This document shows positions 23,182 to 62,302 of a stretch of 64,000 nucleotides of DNA, in pieces. The DNA is from Glandiceps talaboti. Taxonomy: Eukaryota > Hemichordata > Enteropneusta > Spengelidae. The translations under genes were made by a program, and so were the position numbers. Position 1 is the first letter of the stretch, and each line of letters starts with the position of its first letter. The notes beneath the pieces were generated by a model, which had not been told where the DNA came from, searched no databases, and saw nothing but the letters and a program-made list of their open reading frames with translations. The DNA lies in assembly GCF_964340395.1 (NCBI RefSeq), contig NC_135552.1, positions 10,788,194 through 10,852,193 on the forward strand, read 5' to 3'.

Positions 23182-26100
23182 TTACCGCGGCTGTTCTTGT
23201 TCAGGATGTCCTTTGTCTTCTTCTTTACCTTCTGCATCATCTGTTTGATGTTGAGGTAACTCTGTCTGCTGTCCTGTCTCACCTTCTTGAATGTTATCAT
23301 CAGTTGGAATTTGCTCGACTTCATCGGGTTGTGGTTGAACATCATCGTGAGTCTGAGTTTGCTCAACTTCATCGGGTTGCGGTTGAACATCGTCAGTCGG
23401 AATTTGCTCAACTTCATCGGGTTGTGGTTGAAGATCATCGGTCGGAATTTGCTCAACTTCATCAGGTTGTGGTTGAACATCGTCAGTCGGAATTTGCTCA
23501 ACTTCATCGGGTTGTGGTTGAACATCATCAGTTGGAATTTGCTCAACTTCATCAGGTTGTGGTTGAACATCGTCAGTCGGAATTTGCTCAACTTCATCAG
23601 GTTGTGGTTGAACATCTTCTGCTTGGTAGTCACCAGGTTCCTCTGTATCTTTAGGTTGTTCTGGCTCGATTGCTGTGTCATCCTCAGTTGTGTCTGCAGA
23701 TTGCTGTGGTGGATCTTGTACATCTTCGGTGTGTTCTGGAGTTTGCGGGGGTTCACTGTCACCTTGAGGTTCATTTTCAGTGCCTTCCTGTGATGAGGAT
23801 GGGGTTTCTTCAGTTTTCATTTCTGGCGTCTCTCCTCCCTGGGCTGGTGGTAAACTTGTTATTGCGGTTTCCTCTTCCCGGGGTTGCTCATCAACCACTG
23901 GTACTGTGGGAACACTCTGCATTTGAATCTCATCTGTGTCTTTTCCTGGGTCAACAGCAGCTGCATTGCCTTCAGGGCTCGGTGGCTTATGGTCATCGCC
24001 AACAGGAGTGTCTTGGTCCTGCAAAACTTCTGCAGCTTCTTTGTCCTGAGGAACTGTAGAGGGGTCAGGACCTTGGGAAGTAGTGGGTTTTGGCTCTTGA
24101 GGTGGATCAATATCTATCAAGGGTTTATCTTCAGGTGGTTTCTGTTCATCTTTTGGTGGTTCTGGTTCAACTTCAGGTTCTGGTTCAGGTTGGGATTCTG
24201 GCTCAGCACTAGGGCTTTCCTTTGCATGTGTCTTTTCAGGTGGTCTTTCTGTTTCATCATGATAAGAAGGACGCTTGTCTTGCAGTAAAGGTGTTCTCTC
24301 ATTGTCATCATCCCTTTCATAGTCTCTAGAGCTTCCAGTTTGGTCTCCTTGAAAACTTGAATCTGTTTTCTTACATCTTGCACAGTAGTAGAAGAGAGCT
24401 GAGATCACGATGAAAATTGCTATGGCACCAATGATAATAAGGAGCCTGAAATCAAAGAATAACTCACATACTTTATATGGCTATTTTGATTAAACATAGA
24501 ATGCACCTCAGAAATAAACTCATTTATAAACACAAACAAGGAAGACTGAACCCATGAGGGATGGCCCTCACTGGACTTCTCGAGAGACAAGTAGTGTCCA
24601 TGTGCTTACAAAACTATCCAGTATAAATAAAAGATTATTATTAATTGCTGTTTAATACTTTGTTCAAGAAAACATCAACCTCTTCTTAGTCAATAAAAAA
24701 ATCTGGGGTCATTGGACACATTTTTGAAATAGGTCTAAATGATAATTCTTTATATCAAATTTAGCCATTTTAGAATCCAATATGGCTGCTGAATACTGTG
24801 TTAATTCTATGGGAAAGCAAAAGATTGACAATTTCCTCATAAACAAGATGTTGAACTCGAAAGGACCAGAAATAAGCTTTGAAGCGGCATAGTTTGGAGT
24901 GAATTGAAGAACTTTGATTTTTAGGGAATTTGTGCACGAGGGTCACTCTAATACAACACTTCTAATGCTATGTGGCAACAACCATGGTGAATTGTGTGAT
25001 GTAGACGCTGAGTTAATGGTTAATGGTTGCATAGTTTGGTGTGTGTGTGTGGGGGGGGGGGGGTTACTAAAATTGATGGGTTTTGAACATGCAGTCTGAA
25101 AGCTCAATGAGAAGGTGAAATGAAGACGTTATATCAAGATCCTTTGTATTACAGGAGTAAACAATGAGACCACCACATACTCTTAGCACTAGCATTTCCC
25201 TGCTTGCCACAATCATTTATACCATCTATATCAGGTGTGAAATAACATGTTTCATTATAAGGCTAAAATGTGGCCTTTCCAACTGTAGTCAATTTGTAAA
25301 CAATTTGTCTACTAACAACAGCAAGCTGATAACGGTGTAATGAGAGTGTGACAACTGTGATTATCTATATAATTCTAATGAGAAATAGATATATTTTAAC
25401 ATATATGTTTACTCTCTAGTCGTTTTATGACTATTAAACGTGTGCTTTGTTGTACTGGTAACATTTCACTGACTGATTATATTGAGAGACACCAAGGTAA
25501 AACAAATGCAATAGTATACTTTCACACTTGATATAGACACAATTGTGCCAAGCAGGGACAAATGCTTTAGCTGGGTGCTATGAGTTGTTAACGTATGTAT
25601 TATAACTTCGATGTATTATGAAGTAACTCAAACTATTGGCACCAAACTTCATTTTTGTATGATCGGAAATAATTTAACACATGGCATATTTTTAATATTT
25701 ATAAATTAATCTATACATTATTTATTTCACTTACCATGTCCACCACATATAGTACCAGGCTTCTTTACAGCATTCGTTGTCATGACCACAACAGTATTCT
25801 GTACTCTTACATCTGAATTGAAAAAAAGACGATTTAAATTTGAGTACCAAGAAATTTACCTAAAAGGCTACAGAGGTTGGAAGGTAAACGATTCATTATT
25901 TATGTTAATTCAAGCACCTCAGACCACTACAAATTACTATGGAGAGCTGAGGTATATGGAAGAGCTACAAAAAGCAACAACACTTTAATTATATAGTCAT
26001 CACGTCCATTGTTATCGATTGTTTACACAAGCTAAATGATCCCTCGGAACTGTATCAGAACTCTGAATTTCTGATTTTAAATAATGTACTGTGACGTCAC

Positions 26101-61452: not shown

Positions 61453-62302
61453 TTATTCAGGTGCGCTGCTGTCGCCCATGCTATCGTCCATGCCCTCTTC
61501 GAGTTCTGGACGACTTACTTCATCTTGGACCTCAAGATTGATCGATTCTGGTTCAGGTAACTTGGACGGTTCCAGTTTCTTTTCCAAATCGGAAGACAAA
61601 TCCGTTGCTATTTTGTTTCTAGTAGGAATCATGTATACAGATGATACGTAAGTGCCTGGTTTAGAGCCTGGTTTGGTGCGGTACGTCAACGGTTGTCTGT
61701 CTTCTTCACGTGCCTGGTCTTCTTTATATTGAGTGTAGAAATACCAGCCTATAATAGCTGCTGCGATACATAGGGTGAGAAGGGCAGCAAAGAAGAAGAA
61801 CCTGATGACAAAAAGAAAGCAATAGTTTTACAACCTTTGCAGCAGTGTTTTAAACTTACGAATTTGTCTTGAACCAAAATTATCAGGAGCGGGGTCATAA
61901 AATCAACAGAAAGTAAACTTGTCATAATAATATTATCAAAGTTTTCAGAGTTAAAAATCAAATTGTTTCAATGCCAACATTATCGATGGAATGAGCGTAC
62001 ATAAAGCAGACAATTTCTAAATGAACGTATTCAGATGAAAAACACCTGATTCAAGACATGCAAGTAGTTTTGTCATGATGATTTGCTAGAAAAGTCTACA
62101 GAAAGTGCACGTGTCTAGTCAAAGTTTGCATCATTTTTTTTTAATTTCCTTGACGTTAATTGTTATATATAAAACAGAAAACCAACTGCGAACGAATTTC
62201 GTATATATGTAGTGCCAAACCAAATCAATAAGGCAGACTGCTAGATAAGAAAACAACACTTACCAGCGTATGATATCTGTATGCATGGATTGGATGAAGC
62301 AT
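61453..62302 (-). CDS. Membrane-protein family gene 4, 3' part
   Basis: Two exons are supported: 62264-62302 (39 bp) and 61453-61801. The first encodes CFIQSMHTDIIR and ends TG; the second supplies the G of a Trp codon and then a helix (FFFFAALLTLCIAAAIIGWY), followed by a short, mostly acidic tail of about 90 residues (EDQAREEDRQPLTY ... GMDDSMGDSSAPE). Exon size and phase equal those of gene 2 exactly (39 bp, A|TGC start, TG|G end). The signal-peptide exon and micro-exon were not found to the right and probably lie beyond the window. The tail has no motif I recognise. Confidence 0.72.

Follow-up and report, generated by a model that had tools for sequence, protein, structure and literature searches.

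Can the exon plan of a gene family outlive almost all of its sequence, and what would such a plan say about the proteins? The question is raised by a 64,000-nucleotide stretch of the genome of the acorn worm Glandiceps talaboti (Hemichordata, Enteropneusta, Spengelidae; contig NC_135552.1, positions 10,788,194 to 10,852,193 of the forward strand, assembly GCF_964340395.1; the whole stretch is called the window below), in which four genes, here termed A, B, C, and D, lie on the minus strand and, rebuilt from the raw sequence, encode proteins of 500, 371, 1683, and 159 amino acids (aa). An original prediction had described them as a tandem family of membrane proteins defined by exon architecture. 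Architecture, gene order, and intron phases support the kinship of A–D as old, diverged tandem paralogues, and we hold with moderate confidence the fuller reading that these paralogues encode type I, single-pass, Shisa/WBP1-like membrane adaptors.

The common plan runs from a signal exon ending in phase 0, through a micro-exon of 26 or 29 nucleotides (nt) ending in phase 2, to a cysteine (Cys) exon that opens A/TGY (the slash marks the splice) and closes inside a TG/G tryptophan (Trp) codon, after which the transmembrane (TM) helix and the complete tail follow in one exon. The exons inside the window are listed here, with the splice-site scores of note, which come from a matrix built on the 21 introns of one gene, the neighbouring CFAP69.

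29289–29363, minus strand: gene A exon 1, signal peptide, ends in phase 0; donor GTGAGT, 10.4 bits
28863–28888, minus strand: gene A exon 2, 26-nt micro-exon VSSCDSDD, ends in phase 2
26202–26261, minus strand: gene A exon 3, additional 60-nt phase 2-2 Cys exon, opens T/TGC
25735–25812, minus strand: gene A exon 4, ends TG/G, WBP-1-like Cys/Trp segment
23182–24445, minus strand: gene A exon 5, TM helix and 395-aa acidic, Pro-rich tail
37296–37352, minus strand: gene B exon 1, signal peptide, ends in phase 0
36832–36860, minus strand: gene B exon 2, 29-nt micro-exon VNSQDCTTA, ends in phase 2
35794–35832, minus strand: gene B exon 3, A/TGT...ATATG/, CDGVDGTIDLWI plus W; acceptor weak, 2.7 bits
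33956–34946, minus strand: gene B exon 4, TM helix and 306-aa tail
56668–56718, minus strand: gene C exon 1, signal peptide, ends in phase 0
56398–56426, minus strand: gene C exon 2, 29-nt micro-exon VASLECKDG, ends in phase 2
54392–54451, minus strand: gene C exon 3, A/TGT...AAATG/, CKDGYVIGLTGGNWSLWSK plus W; donor GTAAAC weak, 2.2 bits
48300–53211, minus strand: gene C exon 4, TM helix and tail of ~1,618 aa
62264–62302, minus strand: gene D exon 3, A/TGC...CGCTG/, CFIQSMHTDIIR plus W
61453–61801, minus strand: gene D exon 4, TM helix and 91-aa tail

The junctions named in the original prediction recur throughout: the TG/G Trp splice just before the helix, with helix and full tail in the last exon, and the A/TGY opening of the exon before it are each present in four of four genes, and the phase-0 signal exon with its phase-2 micro-exon is found in A (26 nt), B (29 nt), C (29 nt), and, beyond the window, D (29 nt). 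The exons measure 75, 26, 60, 78, and 1264 nt in gene A, 57, 29, 39, and 991 nt in gene B, and 51, 29, 60, and 4912 nt in gene C, and those of gene D inside the window 39 and 349 nt. As a rule the shared plan holds in all four; its description needed correction for gene A, which has the additional 60-nt phase 2-2 exon. Judging from the resemblance of the two exons (CKRDEYC in exon 3, CKSTEYC in exon 4; 18 of 27 nt identical; p 0.0026 when shuffled with Cys fixed), exon 3 is probably a symmetric duplicate of exon 4, which would make the four exons of B, C, and D the probable ancestral layout. The reading frames of the last exons run without interruption for 329 (B), 420 (A), and 1,636 (C) codons, and 22 of the 23 splice sites score inside the CFAP69 range, the exception being the third acceptor of gene B; the third donor of gene C is likewise weak.

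The plan was also borne out outside the window, where 100 kb was scanned on each side (combined region 264 kb, of which 246.5 kb was read). The 5′ exons of gene D are present in the form predicted from the shared plan. Its 29-nt micro-exon, VETKSCTGG, lies on the same strand 17.8 kb upstream of the Cys exon (L010:6081-6109, minus strand), with acceptor and donor both at 9.2, above the thresholds of the micro-exon scan of the window. Across a 514-base intron lies a signal exon, MAAHVLEVGYFLATLFIAALA (L010:6624-6686, minus strand), which ends in phase 0 with a donor of 10.8 and for which an in-frame ATG further upstream is possible. Joined, gene D reads ...ALA VETKSCTGGR CFIQSMHTDIIRW FFFFAALL.... 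On the minus strand upstream of D there are three more micro-exon-like sites (window coordinates 70656, 87583, and 94610), which lack the V start and the Cys, together with another non-repetitive signal-exon candidate at 96543 (donor 11.0) and low-complexity ones. No further pair of Cys exon and TM exon was seen in the read parts of the flanks, where isolated sites resembling one or the other do occur.

Chance would hardly produce these arrangements in Markov sequences, with the caveat that such sequences differ from real introns. Pairs of a Cys exon and a TM exon at most 3 kb apart number four in the window (both strands) and none in 60 order-3 Markov copies, and candidate TM exons alone number six, the four genes included, against a Markov mean of 0.4 and maximum of 2. 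Taken alone, the grammar of the Cys exon does not reach significance in the window (four against a Markov mean of 1.7 and maximum of 5) and so by itself proves nothing. The micro-exon scan covered exons of 20–35 nt that open in phase 0 and end in phase 2. With good splice sites, three were found in the whole window, those of A, B, and C, against a Markov mean of 0.275 in 40 copies, and adding a V-x-[SAG] and Cys condition reduced the Markov count in 40 copies to zero. The GT-start and Cys rule and the thresholds were fixed after A–C were known, and for this reason the micro-exon of D alone counts as out-of-sample. Over both strands of the 264-kb region as read, four chains of a signal exon and a 26- or 29-nt micro-exon with V start and Cys were found, those of A, B, C, and D, against none in 25 Markov copies of 246.5 kb; the signal-exon thresholds were picked once all four were known, and the micro-exon step alone likewise gives four against zero.

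Little sequence similarity accompanies this architecture. The original prediction had called identity almost absent, which is right for DNA, where similarity is mostly gone; it had overlooked a motif, Vx[ST]xxCx4C, common to B, C, and D. Across the micro-exon junction B reads VNSQDCTTAGC, C VASLECKDGIC, and D VETKSCTGGRC (V1, S/T3, Cys6, and Cys11), and gene A has Cys at positions 4 and 10. Pairwise BLAST between the genes is weak, with a best E of 0.001 for the A/B helix, and blastn at E ≤ 1e-3 returned just two matches, one of 205 bases between C and D (69.8%) and one of 32 bases between A and B, both outside exons. The former, a match of about 70% between a gene C intron (window 53925–54112) and a segment beyond the window (~78632–78834), upstream of D's Cys exon, is probably a dispersed repeat. 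A candidate tail motif shared by B and C, YGxTIxL, was dropped after gapless scores between the two tails failed to exceed shuffles. Old tandem duplication, as originally proposed, is supported by the same strand and phases, the loss of DNA similarity save for two matches, and the 5′ exons of D found as planned. Exon phases and a micro-exon have here outlived nearly all sequence identity and pointed to exons outside the view.

What these proteins look like outside the membrane depends on where the signal peptide ends. The V-x-S/T at the start of the micro-exon is compatible with a signal-peptidase site under the -3,-1 rule, and we infer from the sequence that cleavage falls at or near this start; cleavage there would leave B, C, and D with mature ectodomains of 20, 27, and 20 residues and two Cys each. 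The ectodomain of gene A is Cys- and Trp-rich, with 10 Cys, and its make-up suggests a Shisa/WBP1-like adaptor more than a receptor.

The tails carry several predicted docking motifs. Gene B has an LC8-type motif, V-D-K-S-V-Q-T-D, with its Q at residue 359 of 371. The LC8 motif is given as [D/S]K-x-[TVI]Q[TV][DE] (PMC3078936), and a Val at -5 raises affinity; gene B matches all seven of these positions and has the Val at -5, which makes it a candidate site in a presumably disordered tail. Gene C has the LC8 core only, at 195 and 1662, and genes A and D have none; across the four tails the cores number three against 0.55 in shuffles, for a pattern picked post hoc. Two [DE]xxxL[LI] motifs occur in the gene A tail (0.11 in shuffles) and three overlapping or neighbouring SH3-type PxxP matches in that of gene C (1.1 in shuffles). 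Both tails contain coding repeats, a 45-bp minisatellite of 7.1 copies in gene A (window 23296–23616) and a 96-bp tandem duplication with 97% match in gene C (window 52014–52201). The minisatellite also leaves a number of other frames uninterrupted on either strand, which gives rise to spurious open reading frames.

In an adaptor of this kind, the head and helix would mainly fix location and oligomeric state, the head being Cys-rich in A (10 Cys) and reduced to a bare CX4C loop with a membrane-adjacent Trp in B, C, and D. Cytosolic partners would dock on the tail, which is long and probably disordered and which, as a single exon, would be free to vary in length by repeats. The putative contact sites would be, in A, sorting signals of the acidic dileucine type; in B and C, LC8-type motifs for dimerisation; and in C also SH3-type PxxP motifs.

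Known families supply parts of this picture. WBP1/VOPP1/WBP1L of the STMC6 family (PF11669) share with gene A a CCGxxxxCC segment followed by a Trp-rich stretch, one helix, and a Pro-rich tail; the gene A spacing, C-x3-C-x5-CC-x5-CC within the 10 ectodomain Cys (two in each of B, C, and D), is a candidate counterpart of the six conserved Cys that precede the single helix in STMC6 proteins. The cluster differs from WBP1/VOPP1/WBP1L in scoring under the profile cut-off, in lacking PPxY, in its intron phases, in tails of up to ~1,600 aa, and in the absence of the Cys domain from B–D. Glandiceps talaboti has a WBP1 gene of its own (L001:1475-3000, on G000:C16), whose CCGSGQCC...YELWWFW segment is split by a phase-1 intron and, when joined, scores 79.7 bits on WBP-1 as a positive control. 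The other matches to this profile in the genome that were inspected (L002 and L004–L008, of 16) are simple repeats.

Members of the Shisa family (PF13908) resemble the cluster in a signal exon, a next exon that often opens near V-x-[SGA]-x-x-C, and a phase-2 intron before the helix, and they too form tandem clusters in this genome. There are 21 Shisa_N matches, 19 of them over the cut-off. The expansion at L029–L046 (G000:C2 and C1) includes two tandem runs on contig 2, one of eight matches and one of four, and two frames with two Shisa_N domains each (L029/L032 and L030/L037). Sixteen of the 20 returned loci were examined, the remainder being second domains (L032, L037) and weak matches (L047, L048). 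A phase-2 intron directly precedes the helix in all four cluster genes, as in Shisa, where the best acceptor is in phase 2 at 10 of the 10 loci with a visible TM exon and L031 has a TG/G Trp. A phase-2 donor stands near the frame end in 11 of 16 loci (phase 1 in L046, none there in L029, L033, L034, and L045), the upstream acceptor falls two nt before V-x-x-x-x-C in four loci, and a signal exon with a phase-1 donor was found in 3 of 12. The cluster differs from Shisa in having no Shisa_N match, a first intron in phase 0 instead of 1, and a micro-exon; it also has its tail in one exon, a provisional contrast with Shisa tails. Searches listed no Shisa_N match in A (157 aa) or B at E ≤ 10, and none in D or the N-terminal 121 aa of C at E ≤ 1; the HMMER filters discard most weak matches. 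The hemichordate Saccoglossus kowalevskii has 16 Shisa genes, an expansion noted in PMC7653359.

A third likeness, to TMEM207 and TMEM52, lies in the small, Cys-poor ectodomain of B–D and in TMEM207-like aromatic residues at the helix; TMEM207 itself is described (PMC6125347) as a relative without the Cys domain that keeps the aromatic motif beside the membrane and binds WWOX through PPxY. The cluster differs in lacking PPxY and in the long tails of B and C (306 and ~1,618 aa). WBP1L has been described as linking NEDD4-type ligases, as their adaptor, to CXCR4, and CYYR1 as bringing WWP1 to late endosomes (PMC11399591, PMC6125347). With a pre-helix intron as in Shisa, gene A chemistry partly as in WBP1, and a phase-0 intron and micro-exon as in neither, the cluster should not be filed under either family.

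A number of results weigh against the adaptor reading, and the WBP-1 scores speak on both sides. PPxY occurs in none of the four tails, which makes a ligase- or WWOX-type PPxY route unlikely here. The similarity of the helices, aligned near the splice, is above shuffles (p 0.015) and modest. On WBP-1, gene A reaches at best 27.9 bits, short of the cut-off of 28.1, with a 108-aa piece that has five more upstream residues and a longer piece of tail than the 94-aa piece of last ectodomain exon, helix, and some tail (25.5 bits); a 157-aa query gives 20.9, the same as DUF3671, an unrelated family; ectodomain plus helix with the tail removed (46 aa) reaches 15.9, and a 72-aa piece 7.6. The step from 15.9 to 25.5 when a piece of tail is included means that about 10 bits come from there, which slightly lowers our confidence in the adaptor reading. 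In controls typed by hand on the 94–96-aa piece, which are not exact permutations, scores fell to 15.5 with the ectodomain scrambled, 17.2 with it reversed, 19.2 and 20.7 with Cys spacing scrambled and Trp kept, 20.0 with the helix scrambled, and 13.1 with four Cys changed to Ser, and replacing the Trp/Tyr stretch abolished the match; one permutation of the Trp order still scored 24.2. As the controls mostly score lower, the Cys pattern and the aromatics both count, yet the tail supplies part of the score. Gene A is absent from the 16 matches (E ≤ 10) of a genome scan with this profile, genes B, C, and D match nothing above any Pfam cut-off, and WBP-1 is not listed for them. Searches of NCBIfam, PDB, and Rfam were unproductive. 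The Cys exon of the species' own WBP1 starts in phase 0 and ends in phase 1 (T/GG), where the cluster has 2 and 2, and at 12 of 13 Shisa loci phase 1 gives the best acceptor ahead of the Cys exon (phase 0 in L046), where the first intron of the cluster is in phase 0. On TMEM52, gene A scores 16.8 at best and B 12.6 against a cut-off of 26.4, and a scramble of gene A scores 17.4, above the true piece, so that this comparison is uninformative. Lastly, no annotated product of A, B, or D was recovered in two protein searches, the first with a length range that excluded full-length A and the second covering ~158–502 aa.

These last searches, made for A, B, and D, bear on the possibility that the copies, all or in part, are in decay or not expressed, with tails that drift freely. 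The collection does include the Glandiceps talaboti CFAP69, so that the missing proteins favour decay; the models may be unannotated, annotated at other lengths, or rarely expressed, and the length limits mean that the searches say little about orthologues. Given the open last-exon frames and the quality of 22 of the 23 splice sites, we think decay quite unlikely. The original prediction had instead proposed recognition or host-defence receptors diverging fast, with ectodomains that bind variable non-self ligands and tails that signal, and a plan retained while sequence is erased, the tandem arrangement, and the 10-Cys ectodomain of gene A would all suit this. That claim proved unsupported: the mature ectodomains of B, C, and D, in distinction from A, would be minute (20–27 residues, two Cys), no recognition or immune domain exceeds the Pfam cut-off in A–D (C searched as its N-terminal 121 aa), and immunoreceptor tyrosine-based inhibitory motifs show no excess over shuffles (one in C against 1.56; none in the tails of A, B, and D). 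Moreover, most of the divergence is in the tails, which are acidic, rich in Ser and Pro, and of disordered appearance, and the receptor reading is in our view very unlikely, less clearly so for gene A. Introns near signal cleavage sites and ahead of TM helices are generally common, and Shisa genes too have them there, as would be expected if A–D were four unrelated single-pass genes whose exon plans converged through intron placement. Such convergence would also have to produce matching junction phases, 26- and 29-nt micro-exons, A/TGY and TG/G in four of four genes, adjacency on one strand, the Cx4C conserved in three, and D's 5′ exons in predicted form, and it appears extremely unlikely.

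Closer to the adaptor reading is the proposal that A–D genuinely belong to a single named family (WBP1/VOPP1, Shisa, or TMEM52) and have diverged past recognition, rather than forming a branch of their own. The 27.9 bits of one gene A piece and the Shisa-like phase-2 intron before the helix speak for it; set against these are the failure to reach any family cut-off, the missing PPxY, the TMEM52 score below its scramble, and phases that differ from the species' own WBP1 at both ends and from Shisa on the 5′ side. None of the four genes formally qualifies as a member of the WBP1, Shisa, or TMEM52 family, and hidden membership is unlikely. More speculatively, the cluster could be a separate, unnamed family of membrane scaffolds, in which a Shisa/WBP1-like head has been cut down to a CX4C loop and the tail has become a long, LC8-organised docking strand, a possibility that we raise tentatively. 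Homology in such a family would be left almost solely as intron positions and phases, so that exon grammar would detect members missed by sequence search. Should the case made by this cluster hold up, orphans now called lineage-specific may be traceable through their exon grammar. What becomes of Shisa/WBP1-like adaptors once the Cys domain is lost would then be open to testing.

The cluster adjoins the CFAP69 gene, which lies on the minus strand at window 328–14411 and beyond and has 21 resolved introns; a model of it built from window 1–9 kb (minus strand) shows full identity to a Glandiceps talaboti record and 85% identity to the Ptychodera flava one. Between genes B and C, on the opposite (plus) strand, an apparently intronless C2H2 zinc-finger reading frame with an 84-bp finger unit occupies window 40839–42695.

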